A stretch of DNA of 64,000 bases, taken from contig NZ_BHZC01000001.1 of assembly GCF_003865135.1 (NCBI RefSeq), forward strand, positions 4,278,001 to 4,342,000, given 5' to 3'. The position numbers were made by a program, and so were the translations under genes. The notes beneath the pieces are model-generated. The model had not been told where the DNA came from. It made no database searches and worked only from the letters and a program-made list of their open reading frames with translations. Positions 16,839 through 30,195 of the stretch are shown here, piece by piece. Each line of letters begins with the position of its first letter. Within the stretch, counting starts at the first letter, position 1. The DNA comes from Streptomyces chrestomyceticus JCM 4735. GTDB taxonomy: Bacteria > Actinomycetota > Actinomycetes > Streptomycetales > Streptomycetaceae.

Positions 16839-16924
16839 TTAGGACCAGCCCCTTTCGCCACCACACACCTGCGTGGGGGACACTTAATCACCAGACGTAT
16901 GTGTTGATCATGGAGGAGCCACCC

Positions 16925-17422
16925 GTGGAGTTCGACGTCACCATCGAGATCCCGAAGGGTTCGCGGAACAAGTACGAGGTGGACCACGAGACCGGACGGA
17001 TCCGTCTGGACCGTCGACTCTTCACCTCGACCAGCTACCCGGCCGACTACGGCTTCGTCGAGAACACCCTCGGCGAGGACGGCGACCCGCTGGACGCGCT
17101 GGTCATCCTGGACGAGCCGACGTTCCCCGGATGCCTGATCAAGTGCCGCGCCATCGGCATGTTCCGGATGACCGACGAGGCCGGCGGCGACGACAAGCTG
17201 CTGTGCGTCCCGGCGTCCGACCCGCGGGTGGAGCACCTGCGCGACATCCACCACGTGTCGGAGTTCGACCGCCTGGAGATCCAGCACTTCTTCGAGGTCT
17301 ACAAGGACCTGGAGCCGGGCAAGTCGGTCGAGGGCGCCGACTGGGTCGGCCGCGCCGAGGCCGAGGCCGAGATCGAGGCGTCCTTCAAGCGCCTGGAGGC
17401 GCAGGGCGGCGCCCACCACTGA
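16925..17422 (+). CDS. ppa: Inorganic pyrophosphatase
   Basis: Hydrolyses pyrophosphate to drive biosynthetic reactions; soluble hexamer in bacteria. The 165 residues contain [41 protein letters not shown] (family signature with the metal-binding Asp cluster) and [12 protein letters not shown]. The GTG at 16925 is picked because GGAGGAG (16911-16917) precedes it by 8 bases; an upstream in-frame ATG at 16901 would overlap that site. It is divergent from dacB and followed by a hairpin. Confidence 0.97.
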
Positions 17423-17451
17423 GCCGCACGGCTCTTTTCGCGTACGCGGAC

Positions 17452-17481
17452 GGGCGGCACCCCTTCGGTGGGGTGCCGCCC
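17452..17481. terminator. Hairpin between convergent ppa and the HTTM-like gene
   Basis: Perfect 12-bp arms 17452-17463 and 17470-17481 around TTCGGT, between the stop codons at 17422 and 17516. It marks the left border of the linaridin-like cluster. Confidence 0.85.
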
Positions 17482-17515
17482 TTCGTCGTGTCCCGGCCGC
17501 CTTCGCGGCGGCGGG

Positions 17516-18373
17516 CTACCCGGCGGCGGTCAGCGCCTCGGGGGCCTTCCCGGGCCCGGGCAGCGCCGCCTGCTTGTCGCCCTGGGCGAGGACGTAGAGG
17601 AGTGCGGGGTGGGTGGCCCCGAAGGCCAGCACGAAGCGGTTGAGGCCCATGAACTGGCCGATGCCCAGGTGGAACAGCGTCATCGAGCCGAGCCACGCCT
17701 TGGCCGCGGGCTTCGGCAGCACGAAGACCAGCGGAAAGCCGACCTCGGCGGCGACCGTTCCCCAGGTCACGAGCTTGCCCACGGTCGGGTACTTGTGCAC
17801 GAGCTTGAAGACGCGCTGGTCACCGTAGTTCTGCGTACGGATGACGCCGCTGAACGCCTCGCCGCTGAGCCACATCGGCGACACCAGCTTAACCACGCCG
17901 GAGGCGACGTAGGAGATGGTCGTCTCCAGGGCCAGGGCCCGCATGGCGACGTCGCGGGCCTTCTCGTCGTCCTTGAAGGTGCCGGTGGAGGCCAGTACGA
18001 CGTTGATCACCTGTTGCAACTGGTCGGCGCCGTCCCCGCCGAAGGGGGTGTGCAGCCGGCCGGCCGCGCCGGTCGCCGCCAGGACGGCGCTGCCCGCCGC
18101 GCGGACGCCGCGCTTGTGGCCCCAGACCAGCGTGGCGGCGGAAGCGCCCGCCTGGACGCCGTACAGGGCGACTGCCGCCTTCTTGGAGCTGAGGGCGCGG
18201 GTCAGCCTGGGGAAACGTTTGGCCAGCTTGGGGCGCATGCTTCCCAACTGGCCGCTCAGCAGCTCGCCGTCCTCGAACTTACGGTGCTGGCTCAGCATTT
18301 CCAGTGCGGAGACCAGCGTGCCCAGCGAAGCCACTCGGCGAGCCGTGACCTCGGGCGGAGCGCTGAGAAACAT
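17516..18373 (-). CDS. HTTM/DoxX-like polytopic membrane protein of the linaridin-like cluster
   Basis: 285-residue membrane protein. Hydrophobic stretches fall near residues 70-85, 100-120, 165-185, 217-240 and 242-268; the core KLVSPMWLSGEAFSGVIRTQNYGDQ and FPLVFVLPKPAAKAWLGSMTLFHLGIGQFMGLNRF resembles vitamin K-dependent carboxylase/HTTM-like proteins. Similar membrane proteins are conserved in linaridin clusters, where they are thought to take part in Thr dehydration or epimerisation; the exact role is not settled. ATG 18373 has AGGGGGC about 9 bases upstream. It is the last gene of the operon, separated from the precursor gene by a perfect 18-bp hairpin. Confidence 0.75.
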   Translation of the reverse strand: MFLSAPPEVTARRVASLGTLVSALEMLSQHRKFEDGELLSGQLGSMRPKLAKRFPRLTRALSSKKAAVALYGVQAGASAATLVWGHKRGVRAAGSAVLAATGAAGRLHTPFGGDGADQLQQVINVVLASTGTFKDDEKARDVAMRALALETTISYVASGVVKLVSPMWLSGEAFSGVIRTQNYGDQRVFKLVHKYPTVGKLVTWGTVAAEVGFPLVFVLPKPAAKAWLGSMTLFHLGIGQFMGLNRFVLAFGATHPALLYVLAQGDKQAALPGPGKAPEALTAAG

Positions 18374-18421
18374 GAGTGGGTGCCCCCTGTGGATCGAACT
18401 TGAGTACGACGGCCGACACGG

Positions 18422-18463
18422 GGCAGGGGCACGGTAGGCGCAGGTGCCTACCGTGCCCCTGCC
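18422..18463 (-). terminator. 18-bp perfect hairpin (partial terminator/attenuator) after the precursor gene
   Basis: Arms 18422-18439 and 18446-18463 are fully complementary around a 6-base loop, 8 bp after the precursor stop (18472) and 49 bp before the next start (18373). In RiPP operons such hairpins let the precursor transcript accumulate above downstream genes and protect its 3' end. Confidence 0.85.
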
Positions 18464-18471
18464 GGGTTCCG

Positions 18472-18663
18472 TCAACCGATGTTGTGGGTGACCTTGTCGA
18501 GCGCCACCGCGGTCGCCGAGGTCGCGGCGAAGCCGACCGGCGTGGCCTCCGGGGTCGCGATGGTGGCGAGCGGGGTGACCATGGTCGGGGTGGAGTCGGC
18601 GCCGATACGGCCCGGCTTCACGTCGGTGAGCTCGGCGTTGGCGAAGTCAGCCAGGATGGACAT
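18472..18663 (-). CDS. Linaridin-type RiPP precursor peptide
   Basis: 63-residue peptide. The leader has MSILADFANAELTDVKPG; the motif DFAN followed ~8 residues later by PG recalls CypA of cypemycin (DFAN...PG), as I remember it. The distal half is Thr/Pro-rich with repeated TP units (T25P, T30P, T37P, T41P) and carries no Cys. Aligning the TPxM(A/V)TP segment with CypA puts a candidate cleavage after Met28, giving a 35-residue core with Thr at 30, 34, 37, 41, 48, 51 and 59 as possible dehydrobutyrine sites, Ser49, and no AviCys. The start ATG is preceded by GAGAAAGAAG. It lies 131 bp after the upstream gene's stop, so it may have its own promoter. Confidence 0.85.
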   Translation of the reverse strand: MSILADFANAELTDVKPGRIGADSTPTMVTPLATIATPEATPVGFAATSATAVALDKVTHNIG

Positions 18664-18794
18664 GTTTTCTTCTTTCTCTCGGATTCGCACAGTGAGCAAC
18701 TCCAGCCGTTCGGCGGGAGGGCACGGACTCACGCGGCCCGGTACGGCCGAGTGAGTGCGCGGCTTCCAGCCGAGAGGACCCCCGAGCCCCTCTT

Positions 18795-19376
18795 CTAGGC
18801 GGCCTGCGGAAGCGTTTCCGGATTCGTGGCTTCCGCGGTGGGCAGCGAGATTTCCTCGGACACGAAGAACGGCTCGATCTGCCGGTGTTCCGGCGCGGTG
18901 AGATACGAGTGCATCAGCAGGAACTGGCTGTGCGAGGCACCGTCGGCATGCGGCAGATGGTGCTGGATGTATCCGGAGAGCAGCCGGTAGCCGGGCGACC
19001 ACACCACGGGCGCCAGCTCCGACCCGGCGGCCGCGGCGCGGGACCGGATGCCCTGGATCGCGTCGAACAGGGCCTTGGGGGACCGGTTGCGGGCGTTCCA
19101 GGCGAGGGCGTACCAGGGCCGGTCACGGGTGACCGGGATCTCCTGCCACTCGCCCGGCTCGCCGTCCGTGATGTCCCGGTAGAGCAGGTGGCAGTCCTTG
19201 ACTCCGGGATTCGGTCCGAAGAACCGCCAGTTCGGCGTCGGGATGCGCAGCTTGCCGCACCACAGGATGTTGTCGAAGCGCGTCTCGGGCAGTTGCGCCG
19301 CGGCCGTCGCGACGAGCCAGGCGGCGAGGGAGGTCGTGACGGCGGCCGTCTTCACGCGTTCCACGTTCACGTTCAT
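18795..19376 (-). CDS. Conserved protein with N-terminal hydrophobic segment in the linaridin-like cluster (DUF5819-like)
   Basis: 193 residues. A hydrophobic segment near residues 11-27 (AAVTTSLAAWLVATAAAQL) is followed by a soluble region with LRIPTPNWRFFGPNPGVKDCHLLYRD, which resembles DUF5819-type proteins that accompany HTTM-like proteins. Two Cys (about residues 40 and 62) could pair if the domain is outside. Its ATG overlaps the stop of the alpha/beta hydrolase (ATGA), implying co-production. In linaridin clusters, small proteins of unknown function travel with the hydrolase; I infer participation in the dehydration machinery but no activity can be assigned. Confidence 0.7.
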   Translation of the reverse strand: MNVNVERVKTAAVTTSLAAWLVATAAAQLPETRFDNILWCGKLRIPTPNWRFFGPNPGVKDCHLLYRDITDGEPGEWQEIPVTRDRPWYALAWNARNRSPKALFDAIQGIRSRAAAAGSELAPVVWSPGYRLLSGYIQHHLPHADGASHSQFLLMHSYLTAPEHRQIEPFFVSEEISLPTAEATNPETLPQAA

Positions 19377-20395
19377 GCTGACGTCAGCTCCTCTCCCGTA
19401 CCGCCGTTCCCGCCGGCCGGCCGGTCGTCCGCGGCCTGTCCGCTCTCCGCACCGGCCGGCCCGGTCGGCGGCTCGTCGGCGATCGCCTTCGCCACCTGCT
19501 CGGCGAAGCCCCGCACGGAGAGGATCGTCTCGTGGTCGGAGCCCTCGACGAAGCGGTGCCGGGACCGCTCCGAGAGGGTGGCCATCCTGGACTGGACGAC
19601 GCGGTGCGCGTCGTTGTCGCCCTGGTTGTTCTCCGCCGTGACCACGGTCAGCGGCAGGTCCAGGGAGGTGAGTTCCGGGTAGGTCATCGCGTCCCGGTAG
19701 TCCCGGTGGGCCATGGCCCAGGTCCGGGGTTCCGCCAGGAACGCCCGGGAGCTCCGGTTGACGTCCTGGCGGTAGGTCTCGAACTTGTTCAGGGCGGGCC
19801 GGAAGGCGGCCACCCCGGCCATCGCGTACGCCCGCTCCATGAGCATCGACTGCCGGGACCAGCGGTCGACCTCGGAACGCCGGGAGCTGCGCAGATGCGC
19901 CACATCGGTGGCGTCGACCATGACCACCGAGGTCACGCCCCGCGCCGCGCCGGGATGGCGCGACGCGTAGGCGGCGACCAGATATCCGCCGAGGGAATGC
20001 CCGGCCAGCACCAGCGGGAGTCCGCCGGTGAAGGTCTCGCGCAGTTCCTGGAGCAGCGCGAAGTGGTGTTCCAGGCCGTAACCGGCGGGCGACGAGCTGA
20101 GCCCGTATCCGGGACGGTTGAACTTCACGTACCCCAGGTCCGGGGGAAGGGCTTCGCAGACCCAGTCCCAGTATTCGTGGGGCGTCCCCAGGCCGTTGTC
20201 GAGCAGGACGACGCGCTCGGCCTGCGGAGGAATACGGACATCGACCTCTACGAGGCTGCCGTCGGGCCTTTCGTGCAACATGTAGCGACGCGCACGTTCT
20301 CGTCTGCCTTTGCACCGCATTACCGCGCCGGTCAGCAGACTCGCGCCGGCCAGTCCGGCCATACCTACGCCAAACTGGCGCTCCAAAGACGCCAC
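19373..20395 (-). CDS. Alpha/beta hydrolase of the linaridin-like cluster (CypH C-domain-like)
   Basis: 340 residues with an N-terminal hydrophobic segment (about residues 10-25), oxyanion-type LLDNGLGTPHEYWDWV, the nucleophile elbow LAGHSLGGYLVAA, a distal LPLTVVTAEN strand and GSDHETILS with the likely catalytic His. In cypemycin the C-terminal part of CypH is an alpha/beta hydrolase; here that domain is a separate protein, as reported for legonaridin-type clusters (from memory). GTG 20395 is preferred over an upstream ATG at 20443 because GGGGGAGGGAAT directly precedes it. It follows the HTH gene by 72 bp. Confidence 0.8.
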   Translation of the reverse strand: MASLERQFGVGMAGLAGASLLTGAVMRCKGRRERARRYMLHERPDGSLVEVDVRIPPQAERVVLLDNGLGTPHEYWDWVCEALPPDLGYVKFNRPGYGLSSSPAGYGLEHHFALLQELRETFTGGLPLVLAGHSLGGYLVAAYASRHPGAARGVTSVVMVDATDVAHLRSSRRSEVDRWSRQSMLMERAYAMAGVAAFRPALNKFETYRQDVNRSSRAFLAEPRTWAMAHRDYRDAMTYPELTSLDLPLTVVTAENNQGDNDAHRVVQSRMATLSERSRHRFVEGSDHETILSVRGFAEQVAKAIADEPPTGPAGAESGQAADDRPAGGNGGTGEELTSA

Positions 20396-20467
20396 ATTCC
20401 CTCCCCCGTGCTGCGAAGTGACTGATGCCCGGAAAGCTAGCACGCAGCACCGGGATAAATTAACGAG

Positions 20468-20815
20468 TTACTTGAATCTGGGGACCGGGTGCGCCTGTCT
20501 TCCGCGTACCGGGCCGCGGCCGGCGGCACTCCTGCCGTACTTGCGGAGTTCTATGTACAGCTCTCCTATCGTGGCTTTGAGCGTCGCGTTTTCTTGAGTC
20601 AGTTCGGCCACCCGGGAGGCATCCTCGGTGTCCCTGCCGCCTTCACCGGCAAGGCCGACCCGGGCTCCCTCAATAAACTGGCGGCGCCAATTTGATACGG
20701 ACTGCTCGGACACCCCGGCGTTGCGCGCGGCCTCCGCCGCGGTCAGTTCACCGGTGAGCACCCTGAGTACCAGAGCGAACTTCTGATCCGTCGGCAATAT
20801 CGGCGGACGTCCCAC
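20468..20815 (-). CDS. Transposase-OrfA-like helix-turn-helix protein inside the RiPP operon
   Basis: 115 residues. Residues ~1-60 match the IS3/IS911 OrfA-type HTH: LTAAEAARNAGVSEQSVSNWRRQFIEG, followed by a short coiled-coil stretch ELTQENATLKATIGELYIELRK and a basic tail. No OrfB/integrase (DDE) gene, inverted repeats or target duplication are visible, so this is not an IS element. It sits in line between the methyltransferase and the hydrolase with its own good ribosome-binding site (AGGGGG before GTG 20815). A domesticated DNA-binding regulator of the cluster is the likeliest reading; a dead IS remnant is the alternative. Confidence 0.7.
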   Translation of the reverse strand: MGRPPILPTDQKFALVLRVLTGELTAAEAARNAGVSEQSVSNWRRQFIEGARVGLAGEGGRDTEDASRVAELTQENATLKATIGELYIELRKYGRSAAGRGPVRGRQAHPVPRFK

Positions 20816-20861
20816 ATCGATCCCCCTTCTGTCCTGCGCGTCCCGTGGTCTGCTGCCGCCC

Positions 20862-21629
20862 TCAGGGCTTGACGTAGCTGCAGATGAACAGCGGGGCGCG
20901 GTCGCTGTAGGGGGTGCCGTCCCAGCGCGCCATGCGGGCCTCGGGCTCCAGTCCGGCCGCGCGGGCGTAGCCGTCGACCTCGTCCGGCGTGGTCAGCCGG
21001 GTGAGTTCGCTGCCCACCCGGGTGGTGCCGTCGGCCTGGTACAGGATGTGCGAGCAGTGCCACAGGTCGCCGGCGAGCAGCGTCGAGTGGGTCTGGACGC
21101 CCGTGCCCGGCTCGGGGTACGGGACGAAGTAGGTGGTGCGGGTCAGTCCCTCGTGCAGTGCCAGGACCGGGGGCTTGTTGTGCGTCTCGATCAGCAGCCG
21201 GCCGCCGGGCACCAGGAGGTCGGCCGCGCGCCGCACGGCCCGCTGCTGGTCCTCCGGTGTGGTCAGCACCGACAGGGTGGCGCAGACGCAGTACACCAGC
21301 CCGTACCGGGATTCCGATGTGTAGGTGCGGATGTCCCCGTGCACCGGGGTGACGGCGCCGCCGTCCTTCAGGTCCTTCAGTTTGACGCGCAGCGCGTCCA
21401 GCATTTCCGGCGAGGAGTCCACGCCGGTCACCCGGCCGATCCGCTGTGCGAGCGGGATGGCTATCCGTCCCGTACCGACGCCGAATTCGATGGTTCCCGC
21501 CTCCGGCGCGGGATGGCGGGCCAACAGCCCTTCCACCGCTTCGGCCGTGAGTCTGTCGTCCGGGAGCAGCCGGTCGTACCACCCCTCGAACTGCCGGCCG
21601 TAGCCGATGTCCGCAACCCCGTTATCCAC
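20862..21629 (-). CDS. Class I SAM-dependent methyltransferase (CypM-like) of the linaridin-like cluster
   Basis: 255 residues, about the size of CypM, which dimethylates the N-terminal amine of cypemycin. Motif I is IEFGVGTGRIAIPLA with the acidic VTGVDSS downstream, then GDIRTYTSESRYGLVYCV and LLVPGGRLLIETHNKP. N-terminal alpha-N-methylation of the mature peptide is the predicted role, based on cluster context. GTG 21629 follows AAGGGG at about 9 bases. A 438-bp gap precedes it, so the promoter for the methyltransferase-to-HTTM operon is probably there. Confidence 0.82.
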   Translation of the reverse strand: MDNGVADIGYGRQFEGWYDRLLPDDRLTAEAVEGLLARHPAPEAGTIEFGVGTGRIAIPLAQRIGRVTGVDSSPEMLDALRVKLKDLKDGGAVTPVHGDIRTYTSESRYGLVYCVCATLSVLTTPEDQQRAVRRAADLLVPGGRLLIETHNKPPVLALHEGLTRTTYFVPYPEPGTGVQTHSTLLAGDLWHCSHILYQADGTTRVGSELTRLTTPDEVDGYARAAGLEPEARMARWDGTPYSDRAPLFICSYVKP

Positions 21630-22067
21630 CCGTTTTCCCCTTCTCTATGTCCCCACTGTCATGCCGATGGGAGCGTCGTGACGCAAGGGGCGCCGGAACG
21701 GGACGCGACGGAAATACGCCGACCAGGCCGACTGCAGGGGAACCACAGTCAACTGCTCGGCAGTCGGACCAGCAGAGCCATACGTCCAGCGGTAACGTCT
21801 CAACGGCGCATGTGGGGGGACAGCGCTTCGTTCGTCACCGTATCAAACGGACATGCGCGCCGTTTAGGCGTGCATTAAGTCTTTCTTGCGGGCGGGTGTC
21901 TTCTGGGGCGAATGTCTCAAGGTGTGGACCGCATAAACGACGTGACGTGCCGCCGGGCGACTCTTCGCCGACACCGCATCGCTCTGGGCGCGGGAAATCC
22001 CGTTATACGGGCACAGAGGCGAAAGTGACCGACGAAAAAGGAGAAATCGACAGGGCGCCCGCAGCCG
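21630..22067. other. 438-bp intergenic region inside the RiPP cluster
   Basis: Separates the oxidoreductase stop from the methyltransferase start. The middle (about 21790-21930) is less GC-rich than its surroundings. I find no second precursor-like small ORF with a ribosome-binding site on either strand. It most likely holds the main operon promoter and regulator binding sites, none of which can be named. Confidence 0.5.
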
Positions 22068-23585
22068 TCAGCGGCCGGGTACGCCTCCGGCCGCCACCGG
22101 GCCCGGCGCCGGGCCCGGTGCGTCCCGGGGTGCCAGCCCGGGTACGTCACGCGTGCCGAAGCGGTGCCGGAGCGCGGAGAGCGCGGCCAGGTAGCCGGAC
22201 ATGCCGTGCACGCTGGGCCCCGGTGGGGTGGCCGAGGAGCACAGGAAGACGCCCGGCAGCGGTGTGCGGTACGGGTCGATGCGCGGGGCGGGCCGCGCGA
22301 TGCTCTGGTACAGCGTCATCGCGCCGGAGCCGATGTCGCCGCCGACGTAGTTGGGGTTGTAGTCCTCGTACGCGGCGGCGGGCACGGAGCGGTGCGCGAG
22401 GACCGTGTCCCGGAACCCGGGGGCGTAGCGCTCGATCTGCGCACAGATCCGGTCGAAGGGGTCGGTGGGATCGCCGTTCGGTACGTGCGCGTACGCCCAT
22501 ACCGGCCGCTTGCCGGGCAGCGCGCGTCCCGGGTCCGCCACCGCCGGGTCCACGACGAGGACGAACGGTTCCTCGGTACGTACCCCACGGGCGTTCTTCG
22601 TCTCCTGCCGGACCATCTCGGCATGGGTCCCGCCCAGGTGCACCGTTCCGGCGCGGCCCACGGCCGGTTCGGACCAGGGGATCGGCTCGGAGACCAGGAA
22701 GTCGACCTTGGCGGCGCCCGGCCCGTAGCGGAAGCGCTCCAGGGAGCGCGCGTAAGCGCGGGGCAGCCGGCCGCCCGCGAGCGCCAGGAAGCCCTTGGGG
22801 CTGGTGTCGAGCAGTACCGCTCGCGCGCCGCGCAGCTCCGCCAGGTCCCGTACAGGGTGCCCTGTATGGAAGACGCCGCCATATCCGACGATGTCCTCGG
22901 CCATCGCCTCCGCTATCCGGCCACTTCCGCCACGCGGCAGCGGCCATCCCGTCCCGTGCGCCAAGTGGCCGAGCAGCATGGCCACGGCCCCGGAAGCGAG
23001 ACTCGGCAGCTTGCCGACTGCGTGCGCGGCGACACCGGTGAGCAGGGCAGGCGCTTCCTCGCCCTGGAAGCGGGCCGCGCCCAGCGGACTGCCGTGCAGG
23101 GCCACCCGGCTCGCCAGCAGCAGGGCGGCCGCAGGGTCCCGCGGCAGGCTGCGCTGCCCGGAGAGCATCAGGTCGACGACCGCTTCACTGTGCTCCAGCA
23201 GCGGACCCAGCAGCCGCCGCCAGCGGGGACCGTCGGGGCCCAGGTGCTCGCAGGTGGCGTCCAGTGACCGGTGCGCCAGGGCGGCGCGGCCCCCGTCCAG
23301 CGGGTGGGCGTAGCTGACCTCCGGCTGCAGCAGCTCGACCCCGCGGCCCGCCAGGTCGAACGCGCGGAAGAACGGCGAAGCGGCGGCCATCGGGTGGACG
23401 GCGGAGCAGATGTCGTGCACGACATCGGTGTCGAAGAGGGAGGCGGTACGCAGCCCTCCCCCGATCGACCCGGCCGCCTCGTACAGCTCCACGCGCAGGC
23501 CCGCGCGGGCCAGGACCACCCCGGCCGCCAGACCGTTGGGCCCGGTGCCCACGATGGCGACGTCGGGTCCGCTCACAGAACTCAT
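22068..23585 (-). CDS. FAD-dependent oxidoreductase (phytoene desaturase-like) of the linaridin-like cluster
   Basis: 505 residues with an N-terminal Rossmann fold VAIVGTGPNGLAAGVVLARAGLRVELYEAAGSIGG and a C-terminal FAD-binding block GVFLCSSATPPGPSVHGMSGYLAA, the arrangement of phytoene dehydrogenase/NAD(P)/FAD oxidoreductases. Comparable oxidoreductases are present in legonaridin-type linaridin clusters (from memory), with unproven function. It overlaps the exporter gene stop by ATGA, so the two are co-translated. The low-complexity Pro/Gly/Ala tail (about residues 475-500) looks disordered. It could instead serve an unrelated pathway, but overlap with the exporter and cluster position argue otherwise. 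Confidence 0.82.
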   Translation of the reverse strand: MSSVSGPDVAIVGTGPNGLAAGVVLARAGLRVELYEAAGSIGGGLRTASLFDTDVVHDICSAVHPMAAASPFFRAFDLAGRGVELLQPEVSYAHPLDGGRAALAHRSLDATCEHLGPDGPRWRRLLGPLLEHSEAVVDLMLSGQRSLPRDPAAALLLASRVALHGSPLGAARFQGEEAPALLTGVAAHAVGKLPSLASGAVAMLLGHLAHGTGWPLPRGGSGRIAEAMAEDIVGYGGVFHTGHPVRDLAELRGARAVLLDTSPKGFLALAGGRLPRAYARSLERFRYGPGAAKVDFLVSEPIPWSEPAVGRAGTVHLGGTHAEMVRQETKNARGVRTEEPFVLVVDPAVADPGRALPGKRPVWAYAHVPNGDPTDPFDRICAQIERYAPGFRDTVLAHRSVPAAAYEDYNPNYVGGDIGSGAMTLYQSIARPAPRIDPYRTPLPGVFLCSSATPPGPSVHGMSGYLAALSALRHRFGTRDVPGLAPRDAPGPAPGPVAAGGVPGR

Positions 23586-25606
23586 CGCTGCTCCTCACTG
23601 CCGACGGGCCGCAGCCGCATCGTCTGCTCGCCGCTCCGGACAGGCTGGAGCCGCATCGTCTGCTCGCCCGGGCGGGCCGCCGGAGGCATGCCGGAACGGT
23701 TCGCCGGGGACCCGCCGCCCGTCATGAAGTGCTCGGCCCGCTCCGGACCGGCCGCCGCGCCGGCCAGGCCGGGCCCCGCGTGCAGTTGCGAACCCGCCAG
23801 CCTGCGGTAGAGCTCGTCGCGCTCCATCAGCTCCTGATGGGCGCCGGTGGCCCGGACGCTGCCCGCCTCCAGCACCACGATCTGCCCGGCGTCGATCACC
23901 GTGGATATCCGGTGGGCGATGGCGACGACCGCGCACTGCCGGGAGACCCGGCGCAGCACGTCGCGGAAGTCGCGTTCGGAGTCCGAGTCCAGATGGGAGG
24001 TGGCTTCGTCCAGCAGCATGACGGCGGGCTTCTGCAACAGTGTGCGGGCGATGCACAGCCGCTGGCGCTGACCGCCGGACAGTCCGCTGCCCTGGTCGCC
24101 GAGTTCGGTGTCCAGGCCCTGCGGAAGACCGGCGACCACGGTGGCGAGGCCGGCCATCTCCACCGCCTCCCGGATGTCGTCCTCCCCGGCGTGCGGATTG
24201 GCGTACGTCAGGTTCTCCCGCACGGTGCCGCGCATGGCCGCGCTGTCCTGCTGGACGTAGCCGACCAGGCCCCGGACCGTGTCGAGCGGCAGCGCGTCGA
24301 CCGGCTGGCCGCCGAGCAGGATGCGGCCGCCGTCCGTCGCGTAGAAGCGCTCGATCAACTGGAACAGGGTGGACTTGCCCGCGCCCGAGGGCCCGACCAC
24401 CGCCGTCAGCCCGCGCGCGGGCACGCTGAAGGAGACGCCGTGGAGGACCTGCGTCCGGTCGTCCTGCGGCCCGCGCCGGTAGGCGAAACGTACGTCGCGG
24501 AACTCGACCGCCGGCGGGTCCTCCCCCGGCCACGCGCCGGGCGCCGGGCGCCGCACCGCCGTGGCGGCCGCCGCGCCGCCACCCTCCTGGGGCAGCGCGA
24601 CCAGCTCGTCGACCCGCTGGATGGCGGCCCGGCCCTGCACGAACTGGCCCACCGCCATGAAGAACATCACCAGCGGCGACACCAACTGGAACAGGTACAT
24701 GATGAACGTGGTCAGGACGGCCATGTTCATCTCGCCGCGCGCCACCCACGTCATGCCGACGCCCACGACGACGGCGAGCGCGCCCTGCGTACCGACGTTC
24801 ATCGACGGGACCAGCAGGGCGTTGTAGGCGTTGACCCGGATACCCGAGCGCCGCGCCTTCCCGGCCAGAGCGCCGATACGGGCGGTCTCGCGCGACTCGG
24901 CGCGGGACGCCTTGACCGTGGGCAGCGCGGAGAGCACACGCTGCATGTCGCTGCCGAACGCGCCGGTGTCGTCGCGGTTCTGCAGCGCCGCCTTGCGCAG
25001 CTTGCGGGCGAGCGCCAGGGAGACGACGGCGGCGGCCCCGAGGCAGCTCATCGTGATGAGCATCAGCCACGGATCGATGACGAACATCAGGACGACACCG
25101 CCGACCACGGTGGCGCCGCTGGTGATCAGTTGCGCGAGGCTCTGCGAAAGGGCGATCTTCACCAGCGAGGTGTCGGTGACCGCGCGCGTGAGGACATCGC
25201 CCTGCGGACGTTTTCCGAATGCGGTGAGATCGGCCCGCAGCAGCCGTTCCGTCACCAGTTTCCGGACGCTGTGGACGATATTCTCGCCGGCCCGTCCGAT
25301 CACGTAGGACTGGAGCGAGGAGAAAAGCGCGCCCGCGCAGAAAAGGCCGACGAGCCGGGCGACGGGCAGGCCGAGCGGGTCGCCCGAACCCGCCGCCGCG
25401 ATCAGTTTTCCGATGGCCCAGGGCTGGGTGAGCGAGGCGGCCACGCCCAGCAGGCCGAGCAGCACACCCGCGATCAGCAGGGTGCTGTGCTGCTTGAACA
25501 CGGTCGCCACCGCGCCGGAGGCCGTCCCGGAGCCGCTTCCGGAGCCCGCTACGGAGCCGCTTCCGGCCCCGTCGGCCGGTCCCGCGTTCCCGGCACGTTT
25601 CGCCAT
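23582..25606 (-). CDS. ABC exporter (fused permease and ATPase) of the linaridin-like cluster
   Basis: 674-residue half-transporter that likely exports the modified peptide. The membrane domain spans roughly residues 40-330 (hydrophobic segments from STLLIAGVLLGLLGVAASL onward). The nucleotide-binding domain has Walker A VGPSGAGKSTLFQL, signature LSGGQRQRLCIARTL, Walker B VMLLDEATSHLDS and the H-loop AHR. No C39 peptidase domain is fused, so leader removal must be done by another protein. A 20-residue Gly/Ser/Ala linker precedes the first membrane helix. The ATG at 25606 follows GGGGGAG; upstream in-frame sequence is not family-like. The last ~30 residues contain two similar TMRL(Q/R)PVxSGEQ units. 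Confidence 0.85.
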   Translation of the reverse strand: MAKRAGNAGPADGAGSGSVAGSGSGSGTASGAVATVFKQHSTLLIAGVLLGLLGVAASLTQPWAIGKLIAAAGSGDPLGLPVARLVGLFCAGALFSSLQSYVIGRAGENIVHSVRKLVTERLLRADLTAFGKRPQGDVLTRAVTDTSLVKIALSQSLAQLITSGATVVGGVVLMFVIDPWLMLITMSCLGAAAVVSLALARKLRKAALQNRDDTGAFGSDMQRVLSALPTVKASRAESRETARIGALAGKARRSGIRVNAYNALLVPSMNVGTQGALAVVVGVGMTWVARGEMNMAVLTTFIMYLFQLVSPLVMFFMAVGQFVQGRAAIQRVDELVALPQEGGGAAAATAVRRPAPGAWPGEDPPAVEFRDVRFAYRRGPQDDRTQVLHGVSFSVPARGLTAVVGPSGAGKSTLFQLIERFYATDGGRILLGGQPVDALPLDTVRGLVGYVQQDSAAMRGTVRENLTYANPHAGEDDIREAVEMAGLATVVAGLPQGLDTELGDQGSGLSGGQRQRLCIARTLLQKPAVMLLDEATSHLDSDSERDFRDVLRRVSRQCAVVAIAHRISTVIDAGQIVVLEAGSVRATGAHQELMERDELYRRLAGSQLHAGPGLAGAAAGPERAEHFMTGGGSPANRSGMPPAARPGEQTMRLQPVRSGEQTMRLRPVGSEEQR

Positions 25607-25835
25607 GAGTGCTCCCCCGATCGGACGACGGACACGCCGCACGCGCGGCCGGGAGAACGTCCCTGCCTCGTGGGGGCCGGTCATCAGGAGGGCCGAAAGT
25701 AACACGGCGTCCCACCGTAAAGTTATGCGTTACTTTTCTGCCCGACGCATGCCTTCAGGGAGGGAAGCCGCCCTATGCGACCGGCCTCGATTAATTGCTT
25801 TATTGGCGGCCCGGCATTGGCGGCCCGGCGGGCCC

Positions 25836-25885
25836 TCAGAAGCCCCGCGTCCGCTTCGCGTCAGAAGCCCCGCGTCCGCTTCGCG
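25836..25885. repeat. Exact 25-bp tandem duplication at the stop of the ThrE-like gene
   Basis: Copies 25836-25860 and 25861-25885 are identical. The second contains the stop codon (25861-25863) and last codons of the exporter gene; the first lies just beyond it. Confidence 0.9.
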
Positions 25886-27648
25886 GCGCGCCGCTCGCCC
25901 GGCTCCTCCTGGGTGACGCCGGGCGCCTTCATGAAGAGGCGGGCCACCTCGCCGCCGAGGTTCACACCGACCGCGATGGCCAGGGCCAGGGAGGCGGCCT
26001 TGATGAGCGACGAGACGCCGGGGCCGATGTCGCCCTGGGCGAAGTTGAGCAGCCCGAAGTACGTGGCGCTACCGGGCAGCAGCGGCCCGATCGCGGCGGT
26101 CACGTACGGCAGCGCGGACGCGTACCGGTAGCGGCTGAGGAGCTGGCCGAAGAGGCCGACGAGGCCGGCCGCGATGGCCGTGGCGGGTACCGCGTTCATG
26201 CCGCTGACGTTGGCGAGCGCCCCGTACACGACCCACGCGACGCCACCGTTGAGCGTGGCGAGCAGCACGGTGTGACGTTCCTGCTGCAGCAGTACGCAGA
26301 ACGCCAGCGCCAGCATCATCGCGGCCGCGATCTGGACCGGCGGATCGTTGAACGACGCGAACCCGGCGGCCGGGTACAGGTACTCCGGGTTGAGCTGGAG
26401 CCCGATGTAGAGCGCGGCGAGCACCCCGATGACGATGCCGACGATGAGGTAGCCGACCTCCAGCAATCGGGCCGACGCGGTGATGTAGTACCCCGTCAGG
26501 CCGTCCTGCACGGCGGCCACCAGCGCCCGCCCCGGGATCAGCGCGAACAGCCCACCGGTGATCACCGCGGACGCCTGCACGGCGACGTGCGAGAAGCTGA
26601 GGGCGACGCCTATGGCGGCCGGCGGCATGGCGGCGACCACGAACTGGTAGAACTCCGGCAGCCCGCGGCTGGACGCCAGCCAGGCCAGCCGGTCGCCGAG
26701 CATCGAGCCGACCATGGCCGCGATGAAGACGATCGGCCCGCCGCCGACCAGCATGCTCGCCGCGCCGGACAGCAGCCCGGAGGCGACGGTGAGCGCCCAG
26801 CTCGGGAAGGGGTGCCGGTTGCGCCGGATCTCGGCCAGCCCGCGGTACGCCTCCTCCAGGGTGATGCCGTCCGAGGTGATGTCGTCCACCAGGCGGAAGA
26901 CCGCGGAGAGCCGGGTGTAGTCCACGCCGCGCCGGCGCACCGTGCGGCTGGCCGTCACCGGGTCGTCGACCAGCGACGGCTGGTAGGAGATCGACAGCAG
27001 CGTGAAGGTGACGGTGGGCTCGACGCGCTCCAGCCCGTACGCGTGGGCGACGCCGAACATCGCGGCTTCCACGTCCTCCGCGCCCTCACCGCCGGCCAGC
27101 AGGATCTCGCCGATCCGCAGGGTCAGGTCGAGGACGCGCGGCACCGCCGGACCGCTCTCCTCGGCGCGCTCCACCCGCTCGGGGACCGGCCGCTCGCCGA
27201 CCGGCATCCGCAGCATCGTGCGCATCCGGTCCTGCCACGGCGTCTGCTTGGTCAGACTGATGACGGGGATGCCGTGGGGCGGCGTGAAGGCGGGCCAGCC
27301 CGCCGGCGTCCGGTCGGGAAGCTGGTGCTGGCCGGTGGTGCTGTTGGTGCCGGCGGGCGGGGTGAAGGCGGAGCCTTCCGGCTCGGCCGGCGCCTCGGTC
27401 CTCAGGCCCTCGGGGAGGGCGAACTCGGAGGTGGGGTGCTCCTCCTCCGGGACCTGCGGGTACGGCACGCCGGGCGGCGGGGTGAAGGCACTGCGCGCCT
27501 CGTCCGACAGGGGCTTACGGTCCTCGGGCTGATCGCTGCCACCGTTCGTACCATTGCTGACGCCCTGTGCGCCTCTGACGCCGTTCACGCCGTTCTTCCC
27601 GTTCGTGCCGTTGGTTCCGCGCTGGCCCCGCTGTGCGTCCGACGCCAC
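25861..27648 (-). CDS. Threonine/serine exporter family protein (ThrE-like)
   Basis: 595 residues. The ThrE-type core (about residues 160-575) begins with a soluble RVLDLTLRIGEILLAGGEGAEDVEAAMFGVAHAYGL segment and continues with roughly ten hydrophobic segments in two blocks. The family exports Thr/Ser in Corynebacterium; the substrate here is inferred. The ~150-residue N-terminus is unusual: a run of Asn-Gly triplets (GTNGTNGKNGVNG) and three AFTPPxG motifs (near residues 55, 94 and 114). The start ATG is at 27648. It borders the linaridin-like cluster, and its gene continues the conserved chromosomal order after ppa. Confidence 0.85.
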   Translation of the reverse strand: MASDAQRGQRGTNGTNGKNGVNGVRGAQGVSNGTNGGSDQPEDRKPLSDEARSAFTPPPGVPYPQVPEEEHPTSEFALPEGLRTEAPAEPEGSAFTPPAGTNSTTGQHQLPDRTPAGWPAFTPPHGIPVISLTKQTPWQDRMRTMLRMPVGERPVPERVERAEESGPAVPRVLDLTLRIGEILLAGGEGAEDVEAAMFGVAHAYGLERVEPTVTFTLLSISYQPSLVDDPVTASRTVRRRGVDYTRLSAVFRLVDDITSDGITLEEAYRGLAEIRRNRHPFPSWALTVASGLLSGAASMLVGGGPIVFIAAMVGSMLGDRLAWLASSRGLPEFYQFVVAAMPPAAIGVALSFSHVAVQASAVITGGLFALIPGRALVAAVQDGLTGYYITASARLLEVGYLIVGIVIGVLAALYIGLQLNPEYLYPAAGFASFNDPPVQIAAAMMLALAFCVLLQQERHTVLLATLNGGVAWVVYGALANVSGMNAVPATAIAAGLVGLFGQLLSRYRYASALPYVTAAIGPLLPGSATYFGLLNFAQGDIGPGVSSLIKAASLALAIAVGVNLGGEVARLFMKAPGVTQEEPGERRAAKRTRGF

Positions 27649-29372: not shown

Positions 29373-30131
29373 TCAACTGTTACGTACGGCGTTGGCCAGC
29401 ATCGCGTCCCGCATATAGACCGCCAACCCCGGCCGGATGGCCTCATAAGTGGCGGTGAAGCGCTCGTCCGCGACATACATCTCCCCGAGACAGGTGTGCA
29501 TCTCGTACGAGCAGTCGTAGTAACCGGACGAGATGAACCGGCGGTGCTCCTCGGCCACGTCCATCGCCTCGGCCGAGTCCGCGGGCAGCCCGCTCGCCAT
29601 CACCTCGGCCATCTTCCGGTGGACGGCGTCGAACTCCTCCGTCAGCCGCTTCCAGTCCTCCTTCGTGTAAGAAGCCGTCCGCCGCTGCGACTCCTTGTAC
29701 GCCTCGCTGCTCCCCCAGCGCTCGCGCACCTCGTCGGCATACGCGTCCGGGTCGAAGTCCCCGAACACCTCGAACTTCTCCTCAGGGGTGAGATTGACGC
29801 CCATCTTGCGTGCCTCCATCGCGTGTTCGACGGCGGCGGCCATCGCCTGGAGCTTGCCGATCCGGGCGCTCAGCAGCGCGTGCTGCCGCCGCAGGTGTTC
29901 CCGCGGGTCGGCGTCCGGGTCGTCCAGGAGGGCCGCCACCTCGTCGAGCGGGAAGCCGAGCTCCCGGTAGAACATGATCTGCTGGAGCCGGTCGAGATCG
30001 GCGTCGCCGTAGCGCCGGTGCCCCGCGTGGCTGCGCTCCCCCGGCACCAGCAGCCCGATCTCGTCGTAATGGTGCAACGTACGCACCGTCACCCCGGCGA
30101 ACCCGGCGACCTGCCCCACCGAATAACTCAC
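29373..30131 (-). CDS. tipA: Thiostrepton-responsive MerR regulator TipAL, with internal TipAS start at 29804
   Basis: 252 residues. The N-terminal MerR HTH and dimer helix (SYSVGQVAGFAGVTVRTLHHYDEIGLL onward) is fused to the TipAS drug-recognition domain. GTG 30131 follows GGAGGAGGGCGGGCAG. Met110 (ATG 29804-29802, MGVNLTPEEKF) has its own GGAGG 8 bases upstream, the known position for independent TipAS translation. Cys214 in HTCLGEM, which in S. lividans TipA couples covalently to dehydroalanines of thiopeptides, is conserved, as are EMHTCLGEMYV and AVYMRDAMLANAVR. TipAL activates its own promoter when bound to thiopeptide antibiotics; TipAS sequesters drug. Confidence 0.95.
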   Translation of the reverse strand: MSYSVGQVAGFAGVTVRTLHHYDEIGLLVPGERSHAGHRRYGDADLDRLQQIMFYRELGFPLDEVAALLDDPDADPREHLRRQHALLSARIGKLQAMAAAVEHAMEARKMGVNLTPEEKFEVFGDFDPDAYADEVRERWGSSEAYKESQRRTASYTKEDWKRLTEEFDAVHRKMAEVMASGLPADSAEAMDVAEEHRRFISSGYYDCSYEMHTCLGEMYVADERFTATYEAIRPGLAVYMRDAMLANAVRNS

Positions 30132-30164
30132 CTGCCCGCCCTCCTCCCTCTCGGTACGCACTCC

Positions 30165-30195
30165 ACGATGAGTCCTCACGCCACGTGAGGTGCAA
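30165..30195 (-). promoter_or_regulatory. tipA promoter with MerR-type operator
   Basis: On the minus strand: -35 TTGCAC (30190-30195), a 19-bp spacer and -10 CATCGT (30165-30170). The over-long 19-bp spacer carries a 7-bp inverted repeat CCTCACG/CGTGAGG (30174-30190), the hallmark of MerR-activated promoters, and matches the well-known S. lividans ptipA arrangement (TTGCAC, 19 bp, CAGCGT, from memory). Confidence 0.9.

Follow-up and report, generated by a model that had tools for sequence, protein, structure and literature searches.

The gene cluster at positions 17516 to 25606 of a 64,000-nucleotide stretch of the Streptomyces chrestomyceticus JCM 4735 genome (assembly GCF_003865135.1, contig NZ_BHZC01000001.1, positions 4,278,001 to 4,342,000; the whole stretch is called the window below) raises the question of which of its proteins could dehydrate the threonines of its predicted peptide product. 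Our data indicate that the cluster most probably belongs to the linaridins and adds to the legonaridin congeners one whose sequence and mass are predicted. Its main interest lies in the link between its HTTM-like membrane protein and the vitamin K-dependent gamma-carboxylase GGCX: an HTTM protein is found in every linaridin-like locus that we examined, with the catalytic lysine by alignment and, for the window protein, a predicted GGCX-type fold.

Assignment of the cluster

When the GTDB species genomes were scanned, though not exhaustively, with two peptide patterns and a profile built on the 193-residue protein of the cluster, 24 loci were obtained, one of which (L012) is that of Streptomyces sp. 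CT34, the legonaridin strain. This strain was reported to make a 3.6 kDa peptide, apparently a linaridin, and its cluster was described as ten open reading frames (ORFs) and a prepeptide gene (PMC4319589); the name legonaridin is given to the CT34 linaridin in section 5 of PMC9927463. All eight genes of the window cluster share order and orientation with their CT34 counterparts, which rules out a chance arrangement, and the ThrE and ppa genes flank both clusters in the same way. The protein identities are 74% for the ATP-binding cassette (ABC) protein, 86% for the flavin adenine dinucleotide (FAD)-dependent oxidoreductase, 82% for the methyltransferase, 74% for the helix-turn-helix (HTH) protein and 71% for the precursor; the hydrolase, the HTTM-like protein and the 193-residue protein, on whose resemblance to linaridin proteins the initial annotation had staked its assignment, are 73, 85 and 75% identical. 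Because the eight genes are syntenic with CT34 at 71-86% identity and the precursor matches the linaridin family, we consider the window cluster to be, with a probability of about 0.9, a legonaridin-type (type B) linaridin biosynthetic gene cluster. The start codons of the eight ORFs listed here are our choice.

25606-23582, minus strand: ABC exporter, LinT-like, 674 aa; Pfam PF00664 and PF00005; 74% identical in CT34 (L012)
23585-22068, minus strand: FAD-dependent oxidoreductase, CrtO/phytoene-desaturase-like, 505 aa; Pfam PF01593 and PF13450; 86% identical in CT34
21629-20862, minus strand: S-adenosylmethionine (SAM)-dependent alpha-N-methyltransferase of the YunM/CypM type, 255 aa, GTG start; matches to YunM (7WZF) and CypM (7WZG)
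20815-20468, minus strand: transposase-type HTH protein (HTH_Tnp_1), 115 aa; Pfam PF01527
20395-19373, minus strand: alpha/beta hydrolase, LinE-like, 340 aa, GTG start; Pfam PF12697
19376-18795, minus strand: LinL-like/DUF5819-like protein, 193 aa; 49 homologues besides itself; 75% identical in CT34
18663-18471, minus strand: linaridin precursor, 63 aa; NF033402 at 131.6 bits; 71% identical to the CT34 precursor
18373-17516, minus strand: HTTM-like membrane protein, LinG-like, 285 aa; predicted GGCX membrane-domain fold; Lys162

All eight minus-strand genes that had been claimed for this region are present as open ORFs, to which the claimed outer limits of 17516 and 25606 fit, and the Pfam matches agree with the earlier naming of the exporter (PF00664, PF00005), the HTH protein (PF01527), the hydrolase (PF12697) and the phytoene-desaturase-like oxidoreductase (PF01593, PF13450). 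The cluster had also been described as an AviCys-free, legonaridin-like linaridin cluster, and this description is upheld by the NF033402 match, the PxxxTP motif and the lack of cysteine in the precursor as well as by the eight-gene synteny with CT34. The label 'uncharacterised' fits the particular congener and does not fit the cluster type, which has already been described.

Several observations weigh against this assignment or its consequences. The CT34 cluster was reported with ten ORFs and a prepeptide, while eight genes in all were matched here; the value of 3.6 kDa is too coarse to tell 7, 8 or 9 dehydrations of legonaridin apart, as all round alike; and the window oxidoreductase is of the FAD type, as in CT34 (86%), whereas PMC9927463 gives type B clusters a short-chain oxidoreductase. 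Signs of decay are also seen in relatives, with the precursor split across frames in L013 (10374-10903), the FAD gene split across frames in L025 (6008-7509) and an eroded methyltransferase in L017 (7849-8346). Because some related clusters look decayed, the presence of the cluster does not prove production, and one could suppose that the window holds a silent or decaying relic without a product. We find this very improbable: the decay in L013, L017 and L025 speaks for it, but all eight window ORFs are open and all eight genes recur in Streptomyces monomycini (L010) at 87-97% identity.

Corynaridin of Corynebacterium lactis is a further relative, with HTTM, hydrolase, LinL and ABC proteins, a PxxxTP motif and no decarboxylase; it differs by lacking a methyltransferase gene and by having a short-chain oxidoreductase, whereas the window has a methyltransferase and an FAD oxidoreductase. 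According to section 9 of PMC9927463, mass spectrometry detected corynaridin mainly in the form with all threonines and serines dehydrated, and its cluster is free of a decarboxylase. A divergent variant was seen in Streptomyces hoynatensis (L030): its predicted core contains two cysteines, a methyltransferase homologue is lacking and the ABC match is weak.

The precursor and its predicted product

The full precursor sequence is MSILADFANAELTDVKPGRIGADSTPTMVTPLATIATPEATPVGFAATSATAVALDKVTHNIG. It matches the NCBIfam model NF033402, 'linaridin family RiPP' (ribosomally synthesized and post-translationally modified peptide), with 131.6 bits and E 7.3e-39 against a cut-off of 35, and it also matches the linaridin-like and cypemycin models, both under their cut-offs. 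The protein contains DFAN and no cysteine, as the initial annotation had noted in calling it a Cys-free precursor with a DFAN leader, and that reading is strengthened by the NF033402 match together with the 71% identity to the CT34 precursor; the same two results rule out a chance ORF. The NF033402 cut-off was exceeded in 4 of 295 genomes drawn from the genus, the window genome being one of the four, and the search of that genome returned a single precursor locus.

The PxxxTP motif, described for linaridins as a leader-cleavage motif in section 5 of PMC9927463, occurs here as PTMVTP at residues 26-31. The predicted leader comprises residues 1-28 and the predicted core is VTPLATIATPEATPVGFAATSATAVALDKVTHNIG. 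The leader would be cut at PTM|VTP; the exact bond is our assumption from the precedent of cypemycin, and the mass fit for CT34 also supports it. The CT34 core, ITPLATLATPEATPVGFAATSATAAAVNMITHDVTRH, is two residues longer than that of the window; 25 of the 35 aligned positions are identical and 10 differ, and the predicted CT34 core has an N-terminal Ile and 8 Thr where the window core has Val and 7 Thr. Dehydrated 8 times and carrying two methyl groups, the CT34 core computes to 3600.87 Da, which fits the reported 3.6 kDa. For the window product, with 35 residues, 7 dehydrobutyrines (Dhb) and N,N-dimethyl-Val, the computed mass is 3306.78 Da, or 3288.77 Da if the serine is dehydrated as well.

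The methyl groups in these masses correspond to the methyltransferase of the cluster. By sequence the closest solved structure is YunM (PDB 7WZF; E 5.9e-144; 205 of 253 residues identical, 81%), which PMC12719100 assigns to Streptomyces yunnanensis; our comparison with the S. yunnanensis cluster covers the methyltransferase alone. The earlier description of the enzyme as CypM-like is borne out by the match to CypM (PDB 7WZG; E 9.5e-8) and by the 81% identity to YunM, and because of these two matches alpha-N-methylation by the window enzyme is a well-grounded expectation from sequence. The YunM/CypM-type enzyme would dimethylate the freed amine of Val1, and the peptide would then be exported by the ABC protein, whose function is presumed to be peptide export.

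The conserved trio and the route of dehydration

The cluster had been claimed to lack LanB, LanC, LanM, YcaO, radical-SAM, lasso cyclase and CypD-type decarboxylase genes. The Pfam scans agree: the corresponding domains, including that of Cys-decarboxylases, are absent from the hits of the eight proteins and from those of the ten flanking ORFs, three of which have no hit at all. Cypemycin is counted among the peptides dehydrated by kinases and lyases in PMC10880069; among the eight cluster proteins the Pfam scan found no kinase or lyase dehydration protein. The exact mechanism of the linaridin modification enzymes is called unclear in PMC9927463.

The genes that recur most regularly are those of the HTTM-like protein (LinG), the hydrolase (LinE) and the LinL-like protein, and judged from their family this trio would dehydrate the core threonines, and perhaps the serine, to Dhb and dehydroalanine. 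Our data on it cover gene content, homology, gene order, predicted fold and conserved residues. We examined 44 loci at length, all chosen solely for the 193-residue protein: the 24 of the GTDB species scan, 18 places from a class-wide search (a hit in 17 of 394 genomes, the window's own place excluded) and two of three from a same-genus search. In 44/44 loci the gene for the 193-residue protein has an HTTM homologue on its own strand, less than 0.7 kb away, and a hydrolase homologue was found in 38, so that the whole trio recurs in 38 of the 44. Homologues of the FAD oxidoreductase, whose best NCBIfam match is CrtO, far under the cut-off, occur in 33.

The window HTTM-like protein has no Pfam HTTM hit; its best Pfam match, LMF1, stays at 15.5 bits where the cut-off is 27, it reaches 17.2 against the cut-off of 178.4 for NCBIfam SdpB, and one of the 38 aligned sequences has a Pfam HTTM hit, itself under the cut-off. 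The predicted structure, in contrast, matches the membrane domain of GGCX, and despite the missing Pfam hit the fold thus bears out the name HTTM-like that the protein had been given. When the residues were mapped to GGCX through the bacterial HTTM profile A3 (hhalign 97.5%; A3 to GGCX, E 0.01), Lys162 fell on the catalytic Lys218 of GGCX and Trp168 on Trp223 of its quinone pocket; Lys162, Trp168 and His235 are present in all 44 loci. The likeness to GGCX consists in the membrane-domain fold and in the equivalents of Lys218 and Trp223, whereas the window chain is without the propeptide-binding domain, the identity is about 14%, and the substrate residue is likely Thr in the linaridin case and Glu in GGCX. 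Because a pattern search picked up a similar lysine motif in 29 of the 30 loci that have general HTTM-family matches, the motif is, as far as sequence patterns tell, a mark of the HTTM family and not of linaridins alone. In the window genome the LinG-like profile finds one place, which is the cluster, and a general HTTM-family match lies elsewhere (G000:C1:4802896).

The 193-residue protein has one predicted transmembrane helix and the motif PNWRFFGPNP. It gave no Pfam hit, so that its description as DUF5819-like fails directly and holds indirectly, through a relative of 38% identity (P0057) that matches PF19136 barely over the cut-off. We infer that the protein is the equivalent of LinL. Its structure model has a mean predicted local distance difference test (pLDDT) score of 70, with part of the conserved region at low confidence, and gave no convincing PDB match.

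It could be that LinG and LinL act as a split GGCX-like enzyme and that the dehydration of unactivated threonines in linaridins, and with it the D-residues of type A members, proceeds by chemistry of the vitamin K type. We hold this idea as tentative and less likely than not, and its steps are speculative: Lys162 would deprotonate menaquinol, which O2 would convert to a strong base; the base would take the alpha-proton of Thr, and loss of the hydroxyl group would give Dhb. Recycling of the quinol could fall to the FAD oxidoreductase, and a kinase, glutamyl-tRNA and a lanthipeptide-type lyase would all be unneeded. D-residues were reported in grisemycin, cypemycin and salinipeptins, and grmL was proposed as an epimerase gene (PMC10373908); the same carbanion could explain the D-residues of type A linaridins, by reprotonation from the opposite face. 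No link between linaridins and vitamin K or GGCX was found in the literature searched, which does not include key subscription papers. If true, the strong-base idea would reveal a new way of forming dehydroamino acids in peptides and would show that bacteria, too, make use of vitamin K chemistry.

One would argue that the hydrolase has the leading part instead. It has a hydrophobic N-terminus and a Ser134-Asp161-His288 triad, of which His288 is kept in 38/38 loci and Ser134 and Asp161 in 37/38, and in ten of the 38 loci with a hydrolase the HTTM and hydrolase profiles match one ORF (L114, L115, L117, L118, L119, L120, L121, L123, L125 and L126). Such conservation and such fusions, which suggest linked steps on one substrate, favour a route in which LinE esterifies the threonine hydroxyl, Lys162 of the HTTM protein serves as an ordinary base for the beta-elimination and LinL presents the peptide; Ser and Thr are also said to require, in general, a leaving group before elimination (PMC10880069). 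However, in the fused hydrolase part of L125 the Ser and Asp of the triad are replaced by Ala and Thr, an argument against the hydrolase step being indispensable in that locus, a plain base would not need the equivalents of both Lys218 and Trp223, and Pfam shows no acyl carrier or donor-making enzyme among the eight proteins. We regard this acyl activation as unlikely.

Six of the 44 loci (L122, L124, L127-L130) have the HTTM/LinL-like (DUF5819-like) pair without homologues of the hydrolase, methyltransferase, FAD oxidoreductase or ABC protein, and because of them the pair is, by gene content, not confined to linaridins, which weighs against a role in dehydration only. The HTTM and LinL proteins might then merely anchor or move the peptide, with the hydrolase as leader peptidase and a dehydratase encoded outside the cluster; PMC9927463 records that linaridin clusters have no gene for a leader protease, and the six loci suggest that Dhb formation is not a fixed companion of the pair. 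This is likewise improbable in our judgement, as no other candidate dehydratase was found among the eight proteins by the Pfam scan and the trio is shared by Cys-free loci and by L114. The latter locus has homologues of the HTTM, hydrolase and LinL-like proteins and of the methyltransferase, as well as a weak ABC match, as in the cypemycin/grisemycin type. Its precursor ends in VIQGSTICLVC, which we take to be like the core of cypemycin. Unlike the Cys-free window cluster it has cysteine in the core, its HTTM and hydrolase form one ORF, and no FAD oxidoreductase homologue was found within its 17 kb. Because L114 combines the trio with a cypemycin-like Cys core, the trio appears from gene content to be common to type A-like and type B loci.

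Genomic site and accessory genes

The initial annotation had called the cluster an accessory insertion. This is half right: in each of the 24 same-genus genomes that were examined ThrE lies near ppa, and a close homologue of the 193-residue protein is missing from all of them (three have a homologue at 31-38% identity), but in 17/17 near loci (L010-L026) the cluster is found next to ThrE and ppa, which excludes a random insertion at this site. Because all 17 sit in this neighbourhood, the cluster seems to be a resident of the site that has been retained patchily. The 17 show three arrangements, seven as in the window, three with the cluster inverted between ThrE and ppa and seven in which the cluster lies beyond ThrE, and since these vary among 17 species, they suggest repeated local inversions around the cluster and ThrE beside ppa (window 16901-27648). 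In the available stretches of the seven distant loci (L027-L033) neither ThrE nor ppa was seen.

The FAD oxidoreductase and the HTH protein are best counted as accessory genes. The HTH_Tnp_1 protein (20468-20815) is probably a domesticated regulator. Its gene keeps its place in 17/17 near loci, by which a stray insertion sequence fragment is rejected, and it was also found in L032 and L113. A regulator of the MerR/TipAS antibiotic-recognition type is encoded at 29373-30179 of the window, about 3.8 kb past the cluster.

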